IMG/VR virus record: IMGVR_UViG_3300031839_000063
Span: 1 to 23,033 of that record
From: a virus
Direction: 5' to 3' (one strand)
DNA length: 23,033 nt
In this document: positions 3 through 22,950 of the stretch, in pieces
How positions within the stretch are numbered: position 1 is the stretch's first letter
How the letters are laid out: the number at the start of each line of letters is the position of its first letter
Made by a program: the position numbers and the translations under genes
Notes under the pieces: generated by a model
What the model was told of the DNA's origin: nothing
Databases searched by the model: none
The model's input: only the letters and a program-made list of their open reading frames with translations

Positions 3-1619
3 GTAATATTAAACATTACTGAAAACGATGTATCAGAGCAAGGAGGTTGGCCATTCCCTAGAAGAAGTCTTGCAAAAATTCAAGTAGATCTGATTAATGC
101 AGGAGCTATAGGAGTTGGTTGGGTTATAGGATTTCCACAAGCTGATCGTATGGGTGGTGATGAGATCTTTGCACAAACATTATCTTATGCACCATCAGTA
201 TTATCTGTTTTTGAGTCACCTAATGGTAAATATCCACAAACTACTGGCACCGTAATACTAGGTAAAGAAGTTGAAGGTTATGTATCACCTGGAGTAGTAG
301 AAAATATCCTATCTCTTAGAGAGTCTGCAGCACAAGGAATATCTACTGCTCCTGTTGATATAGATCAGTTAGTAAGAAGAATACCATTACTAGTTAAAAC
401 TCCAGATGGGTATGCAAGCTCATTTGGTACAGAAGTATTAAAAACATTAACAGGTGCCAAGACTTATATTATAAAAACTAATGATAATGGTATAGAGGAA
501 ATATCAGTAAAAGGTATACCACCTGTTAAGGTAGACAGTCTTGGTCGTAAATGGATCAGTTGGGTAGATACACCACAAACAGATTTAAAAGAAATGAATG
601 TTGCAGGTAAGTTTGTTTTTGTTGGCGTAACTGCTAACGGAGTAATGCCACAAGTTGCAACTCCAGTTGGTTTATTAGAACCACATAAAATTCAAGCAGC
701 ATTATCTGAGTCAATTTTAATAGAAAACTCTCCAATAATTCCAGATTTTGCTTTAGCTTTGGAAATTTTAATTTTTGGAATTTTTGTGTCATTGACATGG
801 CTTGTAATAAATTATCTTGGTGTAACTAAGGGCGTAAGTATAGCTGTGATTTTGCTTTTAACTACAGGCTTTACAGGAGCTTATAGCATTCAGAAGGGTT
901 ATTTAATAGATTTTTCGTGGACTTTTATATCACAATTTATAACTGGAGCTATTGCTTTCTATATAAACTTTAGAAAACAGTTTAAGTTACGTCAATTAAT
1001 TAAAAAACAATTTGAACATTACCTTGATCCAAGACAAGTTAAACAATTACAAAATAATCCTAATCTATTAAAACTTGGTGGCGAAAAAAGATACGCTACA
1101 TTTTTGTTTACAGATGTTAGAGGCTTTACCAGTCTTTCAGAAAAACTAAAACCAGAAGAAGTTACTGAGATAATGAACAAAGCATTAACAGTACAAGTAG
1201 AATGCGTACAAAAAAATGGAGGCATGGTAGATAAATTTATTGGTGATGCTTGCATGGCTATATTCTCAGCACCTTTAGATTTAGAAGATCACGAAGACAA
1301 AGCAGTAAAGACTGCTATCGAAATGCAGGATCGTATAAAAGAACTTAATAAAGAATTATCACATGAGATTGCTATTGGGGTGGGAGTAAATACTGGTACA
1401 GCTGTGGTAGGTAACATGGGATCTGATACTAGATTTGACTTTTCAGCTATCGGAGACTGCGTAAATATAGCAGCTAGACTTGAGTCTGGTACAAAAGAAG
1501 CTGGAGTTGATATACTTATAGGAGAAGAGACTGCCAAAAACTGTAGTTTTGAGTTAAAATCTTTAGAAGCAATTAAAGTTAAAGGTAAAGAAAAATCTTT
1601 AAACGTATATACAATTTGA
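3..1619 (+). CDS. CHASE2-domain membrane adenylyl cyclase (5' partial)
   Basis: The frame is open from base 3, so the gene begins before the window; the ATG at 150 lies inside the CHASE2 domain and is not the start. Visible CHASE2 features include WPFPRRSLAKI (about nt 60-92) and the GGDEIFAQTL stretch. Three hydrophobic segments follow at about nt 747-815, 834-890 and 909-971, then a HYLDPRQVKQL linker and a class III nucleotide cyclase domain. The catalytic set is complete: metal-binding Asp in FTDVRGFTSLSE (codon 1113) and in DKFIGDA (codon 1245), adenine-selecting Lys (1233) and Asp (1455, in AIGDCVNIAAR), and the transition-state Asn (1464) and Arg (1476). By family knowledge it should sense something outside the inner membrane and make cAMP from ATP inside. 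The stop at 1617-1619 overlaps the ribosome binding site of the holin-like gene, tying it to the lysis cassette. Domain identity is very secure; its role in a phage is unknown. Confidence 0.93.
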   Translation, partial: VILNITENDVSEQGGWPFPRRSLAKIQVDLINAGAIGVGWVIGFPQADRMGGDEIFAQTLSYAPSVLSVFESPNGKYPQTTGTVILGKEVEGYVSPGVVENILSLRESAAQGISTAPVDIDQLVRRIPLLVKTPDGYASSFGTEVLKTLTGAKTYIIKTNDNGIEEISVKGIPPVKVDSLGRKWISWVDTPQTDLKEMNVAGKFVFVGVTANGVMPQVATPVGLLEPHKIQAALSESILIENSPIIPDFALALEILIFGIFVSLTWLVINYLGVTKGVSIAVILLLTTGFTGAYSIQKGYLIDFSWTFISQFITGAIAFYINFRKQFKLRQLIKKQFEHYLDPRQVKQLQNNPNLLKLGGEKRYATFLFTDVRGFTSLSEKLKPEEVTEIMNKALTVQVECVQKNGGMVDKFIGDACMAIFSAPLDLEDHEDKAVKTAIEMQDRIKELNKELSHEIAIGVGVNTGTAVVGNMGSDTRFDFSAIGDCVNIAARLESGTKEAGVDILIGEETAKNCSFELKSLEAIKVKGKEKSLNVYTI

Positions 1620-1625
1620 GGAAAG
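1618..1625 (+). promoter_or_regulatory. Ribosome binding site deciding the start at 1628
   Basis: GAGGAAAG lies just upstream of the ATG at 1628 and overlaps the stop codon of the cyclase gene. It favours ATG 1628 over the in-frame TTG at 1616 and implies translational coupling between the cyclase and the first lysis gene. Confidence 0.7.
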
Positions 1626-1627
1626 AT

Positions 1628-1813
1628 ATGGCAACAGCAAAAGATGCCCTTACTGCAATAGAATCTCATGAAAGAGAATGCAAAGCATTATACAAAAGTA
1701 TTGATAGAAGACTAGAAGACGGTGCAAAGCGTTTTGATAAGCTAGAGAATATGATTTGGGCTGTGTATCCATTCATACTAGTATCAATAGTTTTGTCGCA
1801 GGTTATTAGTTAA
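1628..1813 (+). CDS. Small XhlA-like membrane protein, candidate holin
   Basis: This 61-aa protein has a charged, helical N-terminal two-thirds (ALTAIESHERECKALYKSID onward, with heptad-like spacing) and one C-terminal hydrophobic helix, MIWAVYPFILVSIVLSQVIS. That layout resembles the XhlA/hemolysin-like small lysis proteins common in phages. A holin would assemble in the inner membrane and open it at lysis time, releasing endolysin and triggering the spanins. Placement directly before the spanin and endolysin genes supports this. The start at ATG 1628 is chosen for its strong GAGGAAAG site. The stop TAA shares one base with the next ATG (TAATG). Holin function is inferred from size, topology and position; it could instead be an accessory membrane anchor or antiholin. 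Confidence 0.6.
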   Translation: MATAKDALTAIESHERECKALYKSIDRRLEDGAKRFDKLENMIWAVYPFILVSIVLSQVIS

Positions 1814-2208
1814 TGTCTAAAGTTTTGATAGGAATTATAGTAGTTATGGGATTATCTACTTATTTACTATGGAATGAAAACTCTAAACTATCTGCTCTTA
1901 ATCAAGCATTTGAAATAAGAAATCAAGAACAAAGGTTAGCAATAGAATCATTACAAAATGATTTTGCTTTACAGACATCGAGCTTACTAGACTTACAAAG
2001 TAGAAATCAAGAGATTCAACAAGAAATGTCAAGATACCTTGACATATTTAAACGACATAACTTAACTAAATTAGCCGCAGCTAAACCAGGTTTGATTGAA
2101 CCAAGAGTAAACAAAGGAACTAAAGATGTATTTGATAGCATTGAAGAAGACAGCCGTAACATTGACAGTCTTGATGATGGCTTGCAGTTGCAGCCTGATA
2201 CCAAGTAA
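1813..2208 (+). CDS. Rz: Rz-like inner-membrane spanin (i-spanin)
   Basis: The 131-aa product starts with a single N-terminal transmembrane helix (about residues 3-20, VLIGIIVVMGLSTYLLW), followed by a Gln/Glu/Leu-rich segment with coiled-coil character to about residue 75 and a polar C-terminal tail. This matches the type II membrane topology of Rz-type i-spanins, which span the periplasm and fuse inner and outer membranes with an Rz1 lipoprotein partner in the last step of Gram-negative lysis. The strongest support is that a lipoprotein gene begins out of frame inside its 3' end (2126), the classic Rz/Rz1 overlap. The gene is joined to the holin candidate by a TAATG junction. Sequence similarity to known Rz proteins was not judged; the call rests on topology and gene arrangement. 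Confidence 0.75.
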   Translation: MSKVLIGIIVVMGLSTYLLWNENSKLSALNQAFEIRNQEQRLAIESLQNDFALQTSSLLDLQSRNQEIQQEMSRYLDIFKRHNLTKLAAAKPGLIEPRVNKGTKDVFDSIEEDSRNIDSLDDGLQLQPDTK

Positions 2209-2497
2209 ACAACAGGTTGAGGTTATATCTAAACCTATAGAAAGAACTATAGTGCAACCTGTAATGCCTAGAGAAATAGATCTAAAAGATCCGTATTGGT
2301 ATGTAGTGTCAGATAAAAATTTAGAAGAGTTCTTAACAAGAGTTGAGAAAGACCAAGGTCAAGTGGTATTCTTAGCTATGTCTGTGCCCGATTACGAGCT
2401 CATGTCATATAATATGCAGGAATTAAAAAGGTATATAAATGAACTTAAAGAAGTTGTTGTCTATTACAAAAAAGTTACTACAAAAGAAGGAGAGTAA
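2126..2497 (+). CDS. Rz1: Rz1-like outer-membrane lipoprotein (o-spanin)
   Basis: This gene starts inside Rz in another frame and shares 83 bases with it. The N-terminus is a lipoprotein signal: basic KK, a hydrophobic run (AVTLTVLMMA) and a Cys at position 20, with a second Cys at 22, fitting signal peptidase II processing. The mature protein would sit in the outer membrane and contact the i-spanin C-terminus. At 123 aa it is long for Rz1 (lambda Rz1 is about 60 aa before processing). The region after about residue 50 (DPYWYVVSDKNLEEFL, FLAMSVPDYELMSYNMQELK) looks like a small folded domain of a kind I recall from other marine phage lysis regions, which I cannot verify here. ATG 2126 has an AAAGGA site seven bases upstream; the TTG at 2141 (reading MKKTAV) is an alternative start. 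Its last codons carry the ribosome binding site of the endolysin gene. Confidence 0.75.
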   Translation: MYLIALKKTAVTLTVLMMACSCSLIPSKQQVEVISKPIERTIVQPVMPREIDLKDPYWYVVSDKNLEEFLTRVEKDQGQVVFLAMSVPDYELMSYNMQELKRYINELKEVVVYYKKVTTKEGE

Positions 2498-2501
2498 AAA
2501 T

Positions 2502-2945
2502 ATGAATATATCGCAAGAAGGATTAAGTTTAATTAAAAAGTTTGAAGGTGTTGAATACAATGCTTACAAATGTGCAGCAGGTGTATGGACAATAGGATAT
2601 GGTCATACTGCTGGCGTTAAAGAAGGTGATTTAATTTGTCAAAGAGAAGCAGAAGAAATATTAGATCAAGATATAAAAGAGTTTGAAGGTTATGTTAAAG
2701 ATAGCGTTACTGTTGATCTTGATCAAAATCAATTTGATGCATTGGTATCTTGGGTATTTAACCTAGGGCCTGCTAACTTAAAAGCTTCGACTATGCTTAA
2801 AGTATTGAACTCAAGTGATTTTGATAATGTGCCTGCACAAATTAAAAGATGGAATAAAGCTGGTGGCAAAGTGCTTGAAGGACTTATAAGACGTAGAGAA
2901 GCAGAAGCCTTACTATTTGAAGGCAAGGAATGGCACGAGGTTTAA
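2502..2945 (+). CDS. GH24 (T4-type) lysozyme, endolysin
   Basis: The 147-aa product is a glycoside hydrolase family 24 muramidase that cuts the N-acetylmuramic acid to N-acetylglucosamine bond of peptidoglycan. Visible features are LIKKFEG with the catalytic Glu, YKCAAGVWTIGYGHT, FDALVSWVFNLG, and the C-terminal GGKVLEGLIRRREAEALL block. In T4 lysozyme the triad is Glu-Asp-Thr; here the position of the Asp is Cys (YKC), a variant found in other phage endolysins of this family. There is no clear secretion signal, so export would rely on the holin. The frame is open upstream to 2439, but ATG 2502 is chosen because AGAAGGAGAG (2485-2494) sits at the right distance and the product then begins MNISQEGLSLI, typical of the family. 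Confidence 0.93.
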   Translation: MNISQEGLSLIKKFEGVEYNAYKCAAGVWTIGYGHTAGVKEGDLICQREAEEILDQDIKEFEGYVKDSVTVDLDQNQFDALVSWVFNLGPANLKASTMLKVLNSSDFDNVPAQIKRWNKAGGKVLEGLIRRREAEALLFEGKEWHEV

Positions 2946-2946
2946 T

Positions 2947-4812
2947 ATGCCGTTAAGTAAATTACAATTTACTCCAGGAATTAACAAAGAGATGACTGAT
3001 CTTATGGACAAAGGCGGCTGGGCTGACGGTAATTTAGTTAGATTTAGAAAAGGATTACCAGAAAAAATAGGAGGTTGGCAAAAATCAAACAACAACTCTT
3101 ATTTAGGAACAGGCAGAGCATTGTTAGCATGGGTTGATTTAGAGTATACAAAATATTTAGGACTAGGAACTACTTGGAAATATTATGTTAGTAGTGGATC
3201 AGACTATTCTGATATAACTCCAATTAGAGCTACAACAACCAATGGCATTACTTTTGCAGCAACAAATGGTAGTGCTACTATAACTGCAACTGACAATGAT
3301 CATGGAGCTGTAGTAAATGATTTTGTAACTATTAGTGGTGCAGTAAGTCTTGGCGGTAACATAACAGCAACAGTTTTAAATAAAGAGTATCAAGTAACTT
3401 CTGTACCAAGTGCAGATACATTTACCTTTACAGCAACAGCTACAGCAAATGGAAGTGATACAGGTAATGGCGGATCAGGAGCTGATGCAGCCTATCAAAT
3501 AAATGTAGGATTAGATGTGTATGTACCATCAACAGGTTGGGGTGCAGGTACATGGGGTGCGGGTGGTTTTGGATCAACAACTGCACTAACAGAATCAGGT
3601 CAGTTAAGACTTTGGTCACACGATGCTTTTGGTGAAGATTTAATTATTAATCCAAGAGCAGGTAATATCTATTACTGGGATGAGTCTGGTGGTACAAGTA
3701 ACAGAGCTGTAGCTATTAGCACTTTAAGTGGTGCTAATCTTGCACCAACAAAAGGTTTACAAGTTATAGTAAGTGACATTGATAGACATGTTATTGTACT
3801 AGGTGCTGATCCTATTGTTGGTAGTTCTAGGTCTGGTTCTATAGATCCTTTACTTATAGCTTTCTCAGATCAAGAAAGTGTTACAAATTGGGAACCAACA
3901 GCTACTAATACAGCTGGATCATTAAGGCTATCATCTGGATCACAGATAGTTGGCGGATTAAGATCAAGACAAGAGATACTTATTTGGACTGATACTTCTT
4001 TATATAGTATGCAATTTATTGGTGCTCCATTTACTTTTGGATTAAACCTAGTTAATGAAAATGTAGGTCTTATATCTCCTAGTGGCATGATTAATGCACC
4101 TGATGCAATTTATTGGATGGCTAGAGATGGCTTCTATACTTACTCAGGATCAGTTAAAAGGCTAGTTTGTAGCGTATTAAATTATGTATTAGATGATATT
4201 AATACTACTCAATCATTTAAAACATTAGCTTTTACTAACAGAGAATTTAATGAGGTTGGTTGGTTCTATTGTTCTTCTTCTTCTGAAGAGATAGATAGGT
4301 ATGTAACTTATAACTACTTAGAAGGTGCATGGAGCATAGGCAATCTATCAAGAACAGCATGGATAGATGACGGTGTATTTGAAAAACCTAGAGCTACAGG
4401 TAAAGACAGCGATGGTGATAGTTATGTATATATACATGAAAGCACTGATGATGATGATGGCTCACCAATGGATAATGTATTTATAGAATCTGGTGATATA
4501 GATATAGAAGAAGGTAATCAACTGGGTTTTGTTAGCAGAATTATTCCAGATGTTAAATTTTTTGGTACAACACCTACAGATGGACAGATCAATTTTGTAT
4601 TAAAAACTCGTAACTTCCCTGGAGAAAGCTTAACAACTAATTCAACTAACAATATTACAAGCACTACTCAACAAGCATTTACACGTGCTAGAGGCAGACA
4701 ACTTGTTCTTAGAGTTGAATCAGATGATGATGCAGCAACAGGATCAAGAACTGGTTTTAAATGGAGACTAGGTGCAAACAGGATTGATATTAGAACTGAC
4801 GGCAGAAGATAA
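2947..4812 (+). CDS. P22 gp10-like tail hub/stabilisation protein with an inserted FCCH-like domain
   Basis: The 621-aa product begins MPLSKLQFTPGINKE, followed by GGWADGNLVRFRKGLPEKIG. The middle (SRQEILIWTDTSLYSMQF, FTFGLNLVNENVGLISPSG, AIYWMARDGFYTYSG) and the end (GRQLVLRVES, GFKWRLGANRIDI) follow the pattern of P22 gp10-type head-to-tail stabilisation proteins, which form the distal tail tube of short-tailed phages. Residues about 94-187 are a Thr/Ala/Ser-rich insertion including VNDFVTISGAV and KEYQVTSVPSADTFTF, like the FCCH-type beta domains seen in some phage structural proteins. The GAGG at 2937-2940 favours ATG 2947 over an open frame back to 2917. The gene follows the endolysin stop by one base and joins the next gene through TAATG. 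Virion role is fairly sure; the exact gp10 equivalence is moderate. Confidence 0.6.
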   Translation: MPLSKLQFTPGINKEMTDLMDKGGWADGNLVRFRKGLPEKIGGWQKSNNNSYLGTGRALLAWVDLEYTKYLGLGTTWKYYVSSGSDYSDITPIRATTTNGITFAATNGSATITATDNDHGAVVNDFVTISGAVSLGGNITATVLNKEYQVTSVPSADTFTFTATATANGSDTGNGGSGADAAYQINVGLDVYVPSTGWGAGTWGAGGFGSTTALTESGQLRLWSHDAFGEDLIINPRAGNIYYWDESGGTSNRAVAISTLSGANLAPTKGLQVIVSDIDRHVIVLGADPIVGSSRSGSIDPLLIAFSDQESVTNWEPTATNTAGSLRLSSGSQIVGGLRSRQEILIWTDTSLYSMQFIGAPFTFGLNLVNENVGLISPSGMINAPDAIYWMARDGFYTYSGSVKRLVCSVLNYVLDDINTTQSFKTLAFTNREFNEVGWFYCSSSSEEIDRYVTYNYLEGAWSIGNLSRTAWIDDGVFEKPRATGKDSDGDSYVYIHESTDDDDGSPMDNVFIESGDIDIEEGNQLGFVSRIIPDVKFFGTTPTDGQINFVLKTRNFPGESLTTNSTNNITSTTQQAFTRARGRQLVLRVESDDDAATGSRTGFKWRLGANRIDIRTDGRR

Positions 4813-19932: not shown

Positions 19933-20130
19933 ATGGAACTTAAAGACTACATTGTTAAAAGAGGTGAAGATAAGTTAGCCAAAGACTTAGGTGTATCTAT
20001 TGATACTGTTAGATCTTGGCGATACGGAACCAGGCAACCCTCAGTCAATCAAGCTAAGAAACTTATTAAGATGACAGGCTATGCTTTAGGTTGGGAAAAC
20101 ATTTATGGATCAGTAGACGAATGCCAATAG
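19933..20130 (+). CDS. Small HTH (Cro-like) DNA-binding protein
   Basis: The 65-aa product reads as a compact helix-turn-helix domain: GEDKLAKDLGVSIDTVRSWR gives helix, turn (GVS) and recognition helix, followed by YGTRQPSVNQAKKLIKMTG and GWENIYG. The size fits Cro-type regulators. The ribosome binding site AAGGAG (19923-19928) precedes ATG 19933. It sits beside a divergent control region with two inverted repeats and heads the primase operon, so it most likely represses one or both divergent promoters. It overlaps the primase start by ten bases. Confidence 0.8.
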   Translation: MELKDYIVKRGEDKLAKDLGVSIDTVRSWRYGTRQPSVNQAKKLIKMTGYALGWENIYGSVDECQ

Positions 20131-22121
20131 AAATAAAACCAAACACAGTCGGACAAGACATAGCTAATGATGAGCGTAAAGATATGCTCATGTCATATCA
20201 TGAAAATAATTTTCATCTAATACCATGCGGATCTACAAACGACATCATACCTGAATACTTTAAAAGCAGACATCCCTTTGAAGACGATATGGTTTTACAA
20301 AAGCGTTGGTCAAAAACACCAAGAGTAAAATGGGCTGACTATATAGAGAAGCAACCTACTCTTAATGAAGTCAAGCAATGGTATCTACAATTTAAAGATT
20401 GCAACTGGGCTGCTATCACAGGCGTAACATTTATAGTGCTAGATGCAGACACCCAAGAGGCATGTGATTTTTGTGAGTCAGGTCAGATAACAAGAACAAT
20501 GTTAAAACAAAAGACACCTCGTGGTGGCTATCATTACTTCTATGCTATCAATGATGATCTAAAGATAAGAAACACTACAGGTAAATTAGATATAAGAGGA
20601 GAGGGTGGCTATGTCATGGTCAGTCCTTCTGTTAATTATCAGTTCGAAGTAGTTGAAGGAGCTGTCGTAGATTCACTTGATGATTTACCTACTCTTAGTA
20701 GTCAAGACATGAATATTATCTATGACTATAACAACACAGGTAAGATCAACACAGAAAGTAAGACACCACTAACAACAGATGGTGTGCAAACAGGAATGCG
20801 AAACGACACCCTTGCTAGGCTAGTAGGTAAATGGATACTAGAAGGTTGGGGCATGAGAGAAGTTGTAATCAAAGCATTAGATTGGAATCAAACAAACAAC
20901 CCACCTATGAGTGTGCAAGAAGTATTAAATACAACTCAAAGCATTTGTGCTGGACACTTGAAAAGAAATCCTGAAGAAGAAAGCGGTATACAAAAATGGA
21001 ATACAAGTCAGTGGCAGATACAATTAACAGATGATTTAAAAGAAATCATGGATCAAGAAGATCCTATAATAAAAGCTAAGGATGATATACAAAGCGATCC
21101 TCTTGGACTCAAATCATTTAACGATCCCTTTTGGGATTCAATGGACAGCAGTAGGATTGAGCAGTATTGGGGAGATGCTTTTGTCTTTGAACAATCCAGA
21201 GTCTTACTGCTAGGTAAACCAAAGATAGGTAAGTCGCATTGGCTAGGAGCATTCGCGGCAGCAGCTACTACAGGCACAGACTTTATGGGTATGAGTTTCT
21301 CAAGACCTATCAAAGTAATGTGGCTACAAGCAGAGATCATTCATGAGTTCTTAAAGAAAAGAATTGAGATGTATTATCAACCCTATCATCATGATCCTGA
21401 ACTATACAACTTAGGTAAGTCAAACCTTATAGCATCAGGTAGATTAAGAAAGAACATCATGAGGGACAGCGACATAGATGCTATCGCAGAGAGTATAGAG
21501 TTTCATAAACCAGACTTGGTAATGATAGATCCTATTATTAATTTCTTTAGTGGAGAAGAGAACTCCAACTCAGAGATACATGAGATGTTATCAAGAGTAG
21601 ATAAACTTATTGAACTATATAAAGTAGCAGTGATCATTGCTCACCATACTGGTAAAGAAAGGGCAGATGATTTATCTTTCATGTCAGCTAGGGGCGGTAG
21701 TGCTTTCGCTGGGTGGATGGATTCAGGTGTTAAGCTGTCAGGTAAGAAACCAAACATAACATTATTCTATGAAGCTCGTAATGCAAGAGAACCTGATCAG
21801 CATTTAGCATACTTTGATTTTGAAAAAGGATACTTCAAGGTAGTAGATGCACAAGACAGTCCTGATGAGGTAGAGATTGCAAGAGTAGTAGCATCAGGTA
21901 TGAGCAAACAAAAGTTTTATACAAGACAAGAACTAGAACTATTAGCAAGAAAAACTCTTAAAGAAAATGAGATGGCATCAGGAGAGAGGGCCGCTCGTTA
22001 TGCAGTAAGTTATGTGCAGAAGTATCTAGGCGAAAGAGTAAAGAATCATAACGTACCTGGTAAGAATACTTGGTATTATTTAGCAGACAATGAAATGAAA
22101 CGACCTTGGAAAGATGATTAA
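20121..22121 (+). CDS. PrimPol-PriCT-helicase replication protein
   Basis: The 666-aa product combines three modules. The N-terminal bifunctional primase/polymerase (PF09250-like) shows IVLDADT (Asp108, Asp110), RGGYHYFY (His138) and KLDIRGEGGYVMVSPS (157-170). A PriCT-like helical domain follows (about 225-280, GMRNDTLARLVGKW, PPMSVQEVLN). The C-terminal RecA-fold helicase (AAA_25/RepA-like) has Walker A GKPKIGKS (365-372), Walker B DLVMID (Asp470), VIIAHHTGK and SARGGSAFAGWMDSG. It probably primes and unwinds at the phage origin. ATG 20121 is chosen, overlapping the HTH stop; the TTG at 20091 would lie deep in the HTH gene. It overlaps the next gene by eight bases (ATGATTAA). Confidence 0.9.
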   Translation: MPIEIKPNTVGQDIANDERKDMLMSYHENNFHLIPCGSTNDIIPEYFKSRHPFEDDMVLQKRWSKTPRVKWADYIEKQPTLNEVKQWYLQFKDCNWAAITGVTFIVLDADTQEACDFCESGQITRTMLKQKTPRGGYHYFYAINDDLKIRNTTGKLDIRGEGGYVMVSPSVNYQFEVVEGAVVDSLDDLPTLSSQDMNIIYDYNNTGKINTESKTPLTTDGVQTGMRNDTLARLVGKWILEGWGMREVVIKALDWNQTNNPPMSVQEVLNTTQSICAGHLKRNPEEESGIQKWNTSQWQIQLTDDLKEIMDQEDPIIKAKDDIQSDPLGLKSFNDPFWDSMDSSRIEQYWGDAFVFEQSRVLLLGKPKIGKSHWLGAFAAAATTGTDFMGMSFSRPIKVMWLQAEIIHEFLKKRIEMYYQPYHHDPELYNLGKSNLIASGRLRKNIMRDSDIDAIAESIEFHKPDLVMIDPIINFFSGEENSNSEIHEMLSRVDKLIELYKVAVIIAHHTGKERADDLSFMSARGGSAFAGWMDSGVKLSGKKPNITLFYEARNAREPDQHLAYFDFEKGYFKVVDAQDSPDEVEIARVVASGMSKQKFYTRQELELLARKTLKENEMASGERAARYAVSYVQKYLGERVKNHNVPGKNTWYYLADNEMKRPWKDD

Positions 22122-22950
22122 CCCATATAAAATAGAAGGCCCTGCACTCATTAGCTTTAGTGGTGGAAGAACATCAGGCTTTATGTTGCACAATATAATA
22201 CAAGCACATGGCGGTAAGTTGCCCGATGATATTCATGTAGTCTTTGCTAATACAGGCAAGGAAGCACCTGAAACATTAGACTTTGTAAACGACATAGCGA
22301 TTAAATGGGGCATTAAGATACACTGGCTAGAGCTTTACTTTGGTGATGAGCGACCTATCTATAGAACTAAAGAGGTCACATACGAAACAGCATCAAGAAA
22401 TGGTGAGCCCTTTGAAGCATTGCTTGATCATAGAAAATATTTACCCAACCCAGTAACTAGATTCTGTACATCAGAGTTAAAGATAAAAGTTATGTACAGG
22501 TTTATGAGAAAAATTAAAGATTATAAAAATTGGTACAATGTAATTGGTCTTAGACATGACGAACCTAGAAGAGTAGCAAGTGCAATGAAGCAGTACGAGG
22601 TATGGACAAACATAACTCCTATGAATGATGCCAAGCATACAGTCAAAGATGTATCAGAGTTTTGGAAGAAACAAAACTTTGATCTAAACCTAACGAATGC
22701 AAATGGTAAAACTCCTGCTGGTAATTGTGATTTGTGTTTCTTAAAAGGCATGGATACAACACTATCTATATTAAGAGAAAGACCAGAGATGGCAGATTGG
22801 TGGATCAAACAAGAACAAAAGTTTGGTGAACATCAAGGAGCTACCTTTAGAAAAGACAGACCAGGATATATAGAGCTTGTTGATATCAGTAAAAGTCAAC
22901 AAGAATTATTTAATGATGACGATCAGATGACATGTTTCTGCCATGATTAA
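22114..22950 (+). CDS. PAPS reductase-like PP-loop protein
   Basis: The 278-aa product has the PP-loop SFSGGRTS (14-21), FANTGKEAPETLDF (44-57), NPVTRFCTSELK (Cys118), GLRHDEPRR (145-153) and GNCDLCFLKG (Cys205, Cys208), plus a C-terminal CFC (274-276). This is the phosphoadenosine phosphosulfate reductase/DndC-like superfamily, whose members activate substrates by adenylation or handle sulfur. The extra cysteines could hold an iron-sulfur cluster as in DndC-type proteins. Phage members are common but their reaction is unclear; sulfur metabolism, DNA or tRNA thio-modification are options. There is no DndB, D or E partner in the window. It overlaps the primase stop and the next start by identical eight-base ATGATTAA junctions. 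Confidence 0.85.
   Translation: MINPYKIEGPALISFSGGRTSGFMLHNIIQAHGGKLPDDIHVVFANTGKEAPETLDFVNDIAIKWGIKIHWLELYFGDERPIYRTKEVTYETASRNGEPFEALLDHRKYLPNPVTRFCTSELKIKVMYRFMRKIKDYKNWYNVIGLRHDEPRRVASAMKQYEVWTNITPMNDAKHTVKDVSEFWKKQNFDLNLTNANGKTPAGNCDLCFLKGMDTTLSILRERPEMADWWIKQEQKFGEHQGATFRKDRPGYIELVDISKSQQELFNDDDQMTCFCHD

Follow-up and report, generated by a model that had tools for sequence, protein, structure and literature searches.

The window analysed here is the entire IMG/VR virus record IMGVR_UViG_3300031839_000063 (23,033 bases, class 'linear'). It begins, in a reading frame that is still open at the 5' edge, with a gene for a membrane-bound adenylyl cyclase that carries a CHASE2 domain and runs directly into phage lysis genes. 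We propose, with a probability of about 0.8, that this gene is the sensor and output end of a phage-borne curli (type VIII secretion system, T8SS) module. Judging from sequence comparisons, it would most likely be an envelope sensor of that module, made late in infection together with the lysis proteins. The window cyclase is almost certainly the last gene of the series CsgF-CsgG-CsgA/B-FecR-adenylyl cyclase (AC); this membership is read from relatives, because the window contig begins inside the cyclase.

Viral contigs were scanned with the cyclase, and the best 80 of at least 599 IMG/VR relatives were retained; the other seeds, i.e. Rz1, CsgG, a putative holin with three transmembrane helices (TMs) and the cyclase of phage HTVC008M, likewise gave the 80 closest loci per query. 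These sets consist of nearest relatives, they overlap (L013 and L142 are the same contig) and they are not independent samples. Upstream counts are limited to loci with room, i.e. at least 700 bp for FecR and at least 4.5 kb for CsgG and CsgF. The gene order in the relatives is one or two small TM proteins, CsgF, CsgG, a protein in the CsgA/B position, FecR and the cyclase. FecR is present in 65 of 67 cyclase loci; the two loci without it are L069, which has 717 bp upstream only, and L081, in which a C5-cytosine methyltransferase frame extends to the contig end. CsgG and CsgF are found in 24/24 loci (Pfam E-values in L013: CsgF 1.8e-15, CsgG 5.8e-46, FecR 2.2e-9). When CsgG served as the seed, 9 of the 80 loci were too short and 70 of the remaining 71 contained both FecR and the cyclase. 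The preliminary description, made from the letters of the window, had suggested reading the upstream sequence for further phage genes; in the relatives the upstream genes are the curli module.

FecR and the cyclase are usually contiguous. Measured from the FecR stop to the cyclase start, 48 of 66 loci have a distance of -8 to 0 nt, 2 one of up to 30 nt and 16 one of more than 30 nt; inserted genes were seen in several of the wider gaps that were examined. The junction is an insertion spot: L002 carries an N6/N4 DNA methyltransferase there (889-1560), the C5-cytosine DNA methyltransferase of L081 lies at 3-1622 with a near copy, judged by eye, in L050 (3186-4690), and other loci have small unknown genes.

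It is useful to compare these loci with the modules already known from ocean phages. Wittmers et al. 2022 (PMC9599517) described a pelagiphage T8SS-FecR-AC module from podophages of the HTVC023P type and from myophages; according to the available part of that paper, it contains CsgF, CsgG, CsgA/B, FecR and adenylate cyclase in the same order as the relatives of the window. The words CHASE, holin, spanin, lysozyme and endolysin do not occur in its main text. HTVC023P-type phages have DNA polymerase A, whereas 10 of the 13 records inspected here, which may be incomplete, are without it. Phage copies of the CHASE2-cyclase are also annotated in HTVC008M and Melnitz (Kyanoviridae), where two small TM proteins are followed by CsgF, CsgG, a CsgB-like protein, FecR, a curli repeat protein and the cyclase. 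These cyclases are 31-34% identical to that of the window. The two phages differ from the window's relatives by the second curli-repeat gene, between FecR and the cyclase, and by having no annotated lysis gene directly after the cyclase; their module is sited elsewhere, near reverse-strand tail or hypothetical genes. The host of Melnitz belongs to OM43 (Methylophilaceae). The earlier remark, that no standard phage lysis module is known to have such a gene, holds in part: the cyclase and its module were on record, and no report of a cyclase-lysis link in podophages was found in the literature searched (open-licence papers, without supplements). The union of cyclase and lysis genes thus seems new, while the curli module itself is already known.

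The cyclase gene of the window has the following parts:

3-1619, forward strand: CHASE2 / three-TM / class III (IIIb-like) adenylyl cyclase, 5'-truncated by the contig end (Pfam, alignment, AlphaFold)
3-785, forward strand: CHASE2 domain, predicted periplasmic (PF05226, residues 1-261, E 9.5e-22; alpha/beta fold in the model)
750-1013, forward strand: three predicted membrane helices and the start of the linker, residues 250-337 (AlphaFold helices 250-272, 274-297 and 305-337)
1095-1598, forward strand: class III cyclase catalytic domain, residues 365-532 (PF00211 Guanylate_cyc, E 4.8e-23)

Pfam and the AlphaFold model (mean predicted local distance difference test score, pLDDT, 75; 22 rows) agree with the architecture that had been read from the sequence. 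A Kyte-Doolittle scan finds two of the three helices (251-269 and 272-290), and the solved structures nearest to the model are class III cyclases including CyaC, Cya2 and CyaB (e.g. 1wc1, 2w01, 3r5g). Alignment to L002, the closest relative (90% identical), shows that about 44 N-terminal residues are absent from the window protein, and the full-length protein of L013 has an additional N-terminal TM where the window cyclase is cut off. The layout of a CHASE2 receptor is thus found in Pfam and the model, i.e. an N-terminal TM (in L013), an extracytoplasmic CHASE2 domain, three TMs and an output domain. Class III cyclases use two metal-binding Asp residues, an adenine-binding Lys with a Thr or Ser partner, and an Asn and an Arg that stabilise the transition state. 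All six positions are kept in 73/73 sequences (the window and 72 relatives), in agreement with the full catalytic set first described: five of them (Asp 371, Lys 411, Asp 415, Asn 488, Arg 492) never vary, and the sixth, 481, is Ser in 51 and Thr in 22. Of 9 pairs, 3 are near-identical and thus uninformative; the other 6 have a dN far lower than dS, except that the cyclase half is identical between the window and L002. The window protein is very probably an active adenylyl cyclase.

The gene is also a mosaic. When window 3-1616 is compared with L002:1691-3304 in 150-base steps, identity is 96-100% from position 903 through the lysis genes and 67-81% over 153-602, within the CHASE2 half, which indicates a recombination boundary inside the cyclase gene.

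The junction with the lysis genes and the genes that follow are laid out as follows:

1618-1621, forward strand: GAGG, a Shine-Dalgarno-like motif that overlaps the cyclase stop TGA (1617-1619) and lies 6 nt before the ATG at 1628
1628-1813, forward strand: 61-aa protein, a putative holin with a single C-terminal TM at residues 39-57 by hydropathy
1813-2208, forward strand: Rz-like inner-membrane spanin (phrog_739, E 2.4e-12), its ATG overlapping the preceding stop by 1 nt
2126-2497, forward strand: Rz1-like lipoprotein spanin (phrog_812, E 1.2e-11), overlapping Rz out of frame, with a lipobox-like LMMAC recognised by eye
2502-2945, forward strand: GH24 endolysin of the T4-lysozyme type (PF00959, E 4.8e-49; phrog_7, E 7.4e-60)
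2947-4812, forward strand: virion structural protein after the lysis genes (phrog_3287, E 3.2e-68), with relatives in HTVC027P, HTVC023P and Roseobacter phages

The overlapping Rz/Rz1 pair and the GH24 endolysin resemble ordinary holin-Rz-Rz1-endolysin cassettes; the difference is that the window set is abutted upstream by a signalling enzyme. The overlap of stop codon and ribosome binding site and, by PHROG matches, the Rz, Rz1 and endolysin genes were all as first described. The name holin for the 61-aa protein is unproven and reflects topology alone: there is no Pfam family, one PHROG match (E 0.009) is uninformative, and relatives of the protein occur in 22 of the 80 cyclase loci. A chimeric contig joined near position 1620 was considered and is ruled out because many other contigs show the same join of cyclase and lysis genes, in line with the earlier argument that the overlap speaks against a chance junction.

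Downstream neighbours were counted in two ways: the loose count accepts putative holins, and the strict count accepts only Rz, Rz1, GH24, the gene transfer agent (GTA) holin or M15. By the loose count a lysis-type match lies within 1 kb after the cyclase in 72 of the 73 loci that extend 1 kb or more beyond it, the exception being L079; by the strict count 60/73 have a firmly identified lysis gene within 1 kb. A search of viral metagenomes for such cyclases next to GH24 and spanin genes had been proposed. The association with lysis genes is borne out by 53/62 loci in the strict count within 1.5 kb and by the Rz1 seed, for which 71 of 80 loci have the cyclase no more than 700 bp ahead of Rz; the other 9 have at most 43 bases upstream, so that the informative figure is 71/71. 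Among the 70 CsgG-seeded loci with a cyclase, a lysis-type match follows in 60 and 8 end within 111 bases, which gives 60/62 informative loci (45/47 by the strict count, among loci that continue for 1.5 kb or more beyond the cyclase); the two exceptions, L224 and L230, have none of the tested lysis genes in 4.9 and 6.5 kb after the cyclase. The putative 3-TM holin, used as a seed, has the cyclase within 700 bp upstream in 76/80 loci, and L292 and L294 show no cyclase.

The lysis genes themselves are of at least three sets. The first is Rz/Rz1/GH24, with or without the 61-aa protein; the second consists of a 71-aa one-TM protein, the putative 3-TM holin and GH24; the third, in 9 loci, starts with a 3-TM holin of the GTA type (in L058, PF11351, E 5.2e-17), and an M15 peptidase follows by profile in 9/9 (PF08291 in both of those tested). 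No Pfam family covers the putative 3-TM holin, its PHROG match is of unknown function and hydropathy shows two TMs; we kept it as lysis-associated because, of the 64 loci with room, 62 have GH24 at a distance of 1 kb or less. The module adjoins each of these sets and lies between holin-like proteins: in some loci, for example L014, L066 and L070, a relative of the 61-aa protein is upstream of the module, which thus stands between this relative and Rz. In L079 such a relative is found about 5 kb upstream, just before the structural gene. That one module is joined to different lysis sets within one phage branch provides an independent clue to late infection and to the envelope.

It is tempting to read this adjacency as a clock for lysis, in which FecR and CHASE2 read the envelope, cyclic AMP (cAMP) acting on an unknown receptor triggers or delays lysis, and the CsgG pore helps to permeabilise the outer membrane. 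The cyclase stands directly ahead of differing lysis sets; in 56 of 77 loci no more than 20 nt separate its stop from the lysis-type match that follows, if putative holins are counted. In L296 and L310 the order is inverted (GH24, 3-TM protein, small TM protein, CsgF, CsgG, CsgA-like protein) and the block still touches lysis genes; L310 continues with FecR and cyclase, whereas L296 ends earlier. The small TM proteins before CsgF point the same way, since they weakly match a holin PHROG (7e-5, 7e-4 and 2e-4 in the three tested) and have relatives in HTVC008M and Melnitz. On the other hand, among the 80 loci seeded with the HTVC008M cyclase, FecR is present in 34/34 with at least 3 kb upstream and CsgG in 24/24 with at least 5 kb upstream, while the tested lysis genes, M15 included, stand beside the module in 0/64 loci with at least 2 kb downstream; the lysis profiles are derived from podophages and divergent myophage lysis genes could escape them. 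Because of this result a link to lysis genes is not inherent in the cyclase: in the loci seen, the association with curli genes is the general one, and that with lysis genes belongs to the podovirus-like lineages. L224, L230 and L079, the last with 10 kb after the cyclase, also speak against the clock, as does the lack of a cyclic-nucleotide-binding domain in the phage records (see below). Furthermore, holins are normally timed by their accumulation and need no second messenger. Overall we regard the clock as unlikely, and a direct role of the cyclase in lysis timing is graded much the same; such a role is possible but unproven, with support from its position next to lysis genes and with the myophage lineage arguing against an obligatory one.

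Direct timing competes with simple co-expression in a late operon. If the arrangement were purely positional, the curli module would be a block of late cargo that shares late transcription and occupies a tolerated insertion site before the lysis genes. This is a serious contender to which we give slightly less than an even chance. It fits the different location of the same module in HTVC008M and Melnitz, and the FecR-cyclase junction accepts unrelated genes including DNA methyltransferases (the 16/66 gaps above 30 nt). The 71/71 Rz1-seeded loci together with the differing lysis sets are more than one founder insertion would give, but recombination of linked blocks could produce them.

The roles proposed for curli genes in ocean phages are sibling capture, uptake, superinfection defence and lysis timing. 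Sibling capture was put forward by Zaragoza-Solas et al. (PMC7029224); Buchholz et al. (PMC9004378) observed no clumping and suggested, on grounds other than gene position, that curli pores might act as a pinholin or a secretin that times lysis, in both cases according to the parts of these papers that were available. By extension, the whole module, including FecR, CHASE2 and the cyclase, could be an apparatus for lysis control rather than, or besides, fibre secretion cargo; in hosts that have no CRP-type receptor, its cAMP could then time envelope rupture by way of a receptor, of phage or host, that is yet to be described. We consider this extended reading improbable, a shade more so than the clock itself.

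The reading that we favour, an envelope sensor belonging to the curli module, draws on the bacterial relatives of the pair. We inspected 20 bacterial CHASE2 loci from the class of a genome deposited as Ca. Pelagibacter (see below), with flanks of up to about 8 kb; 19 were picked among the top-scoring matches, and one belongs to a SAR11-family genome. A FecR-like protein is present in 10/20 of these loci and CsgG in 0/20. In Campylobacterota, CHASE2-cyclases mostly cluster with FecR, a phosphodiesterase and a tetratricopeptide repeat (TPR) protein, as stated in the accessible part of PMC9239204. The likeness between the bacterial clusters and the phage module is thus a CHASE2 class III cyclase near a FecR-domain protein; the differences are the lack of a nearby CsgG and, in the Campylobacterota as described there, the added phosphodiesterase and TPR protein. 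A partnership of FecR and CHASE2 is accordingly suggested by gene neighbourhoods, and we consider it probable.

Two of the bacterial loci, L433 and L442, match the phage cyclase profile weakly, and their CHASE2 proteins may have another output domain. L442 (G025:C1:316111-333130) comes from the SAR11-family genome, which encodes a CHASE2 protein of its own close to a FecR-like gene; the SAR11-type family is otherwise poor in class III cyclases. By SAR11-type we mean the family of a metagenome-assembled genome (MAG) deposited as Ca. Pelagibacter, represented by 118 genomes whose completeness is not given. CHASE2 occurs in 138 of 289 genomes of the class that contains this MAG (presumably Alphaproteobacteria).

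If the envelope-sensor reading is correct, FecR would be exported to the periplasm, where it may be the partner or the ligand relay of CHASE2, as the bacterial clusters suggest. The pair might monitor the outer membrane or the curli pore, and the signal would cross the three TMs and alter the conversion of ATP to cAMP. The block would be expressed late with the lysis proteins, so that cAMP might be made in the same phase in which the fibre or pore is assembled and the envelope breaks down. The target of cAMP would probably not be CRP if the host is SAR11-like.

Several observations weigh against this proposal. The module is absent from the window itself, as the contig starts inside the cyclase. 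No Curlin_rpt domain was found by Pfam in the podoviral protein at the CsgA/B position; the profile of this protein matches the HTVC008M protein annotated as CsgB (E 1.1e-24). Pairwise distance correlations over 44 loci are 0.85 for CsgG-FecR, 0.44 for FecR-CHASE2 and 0.20 for FecR-cyclase, but the FecR-CHASE2 value is confounded by gene order and DNA distance explains the same gradient. The structure model of FecR was unusable (mean pLDDT 33) and was discarded. In the comparison of the window with L002, the part of the gene for the cyclase domain has recombined apart from the CHASE2 part. As for the lysis side, 8/62 cyclase loci have the putative 3-TM holin as their sole lysis-type neighbour and L079 has none, and the linkage may reflect few ancestral events because the locus sets overlap and keep the 80 closest relatives per query.

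Where the cAMP could act is a question in its own right. PF00027, the cyclic-nucleotide-binding domain, was found in 0/16 phage records, i.e. the complete HTVC008M, a complete Melnitz strain and 14 records that are possibly fragments. Among the 118 SAR11-type genomes it is present in 5 and missing in 113, and HTH_Crp_2 passes its cut-off in 1, with 21 more weak matches (22 at E 1e-3). Matches to PF00211 (E 1e-3) occur in 3/118, one of them being the curli-module contig in the MAG itself. With PF00027 absent from these phage records and this rare in the genomes, it is doubtful that cAMP acts through CRP in a SAR11-like host; other cAMP-binding folds are possible.

These figures bear on two further proposals of the preliminary description. 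One is that the phage rewires host catabolite control: cAMP would act on a host CRP-type regulator and induce biofilm or alter catabolism. The cyclase residues, going by their usual roles, indicate ATP as the substrate, some non-SAR11 hosts may have CRP, and Wittmers et al. (PMC9599517) discuss, in the part available, an analogy to cAMP and CsgD. The 113 genomes without PF00027 and the single HTH_Crp_2 match above cut-off speak against it for a SAR11-like host, and we regard it as quite improbable. The other is that the cyclase counters a host defence, by interfering with a cyclic-nucleotide system such as Pycsar. PADLOC models of PycC do match the catalytic domain (best 1.1e-29), as expected for a class III cyclase. 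Pycsar pairs a cyclase with a cyclic-nucleotide-binding effector, and effectors of this kind would carry the corresponding domain. None of the 16 phage records has such a partner, the neighbours are FecR, curli and lysis genes instead, and SAR11-type genomes are mostly without the binding domain; we find no specific support for counter-defence and regard it as very improbable. That a cyclase is carried by phages of a host group mostly without a cAMP receptor domain or a class III cyclase of its own makes the question testable: the alternatives for phage cAMP are a receptor of another kind or a signal that works differently from CRP.

Three contigs of MAGs (L084, L085 and L086) had been candidates for bacterial examples of the cyclase and were rejected, as they look like phage contigs binned with the MAGs. 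Curli-module genes stand beside the cyclase in 3/3 (in L085, which is cut at its start, only the CsgA-like gene and FecR), and one of the three also carries Rz, Rz1 and GH24; at least one of them is clearly of phage origin. They lie inside MAGs deposited as Pelagibacter, Neomarinimicrobiota and Flavobacteriaceae and can mislead searches for a bacterial origin.

The small proteins at the head of the module deserve a comment. Examples are:

L013:6452-6799, L014:3166-3716 and L082:3773-4332: small proteins with one TM, encoded ahead of CsgF in both podophages and myophages

They have 90-116 aa, with one TM followed by a polar tail. Their Pfam matches to unrelated families were below cut-off and were disregarded, and no kinase domain was found in them by Pfam. 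Wittmers et al. (PMC9599517), in the part available, place a 'histidine kinase', sometimes two, ahead of CsgF, and we suspect that these small proteins are the genes meant.

As to the phages themselves, DNA polymerase A was found in 3 of 13 records (the window and 12 relatives) and, on this ground, more than one phage lineage is likely to be involved in the podovirus-like clan. The domain search did not find this polymerase in the window record, and the protein matches that the window's primase and helicase have among cultured phages are weak or generic. The replication end of the window (20091-22950) encodes a Prim-Pol/PriCT/AAA_25 protein followed by a protein with a 3'-phosphoadenosine-5'-phosphosulfate (PAPS) reductase domain.

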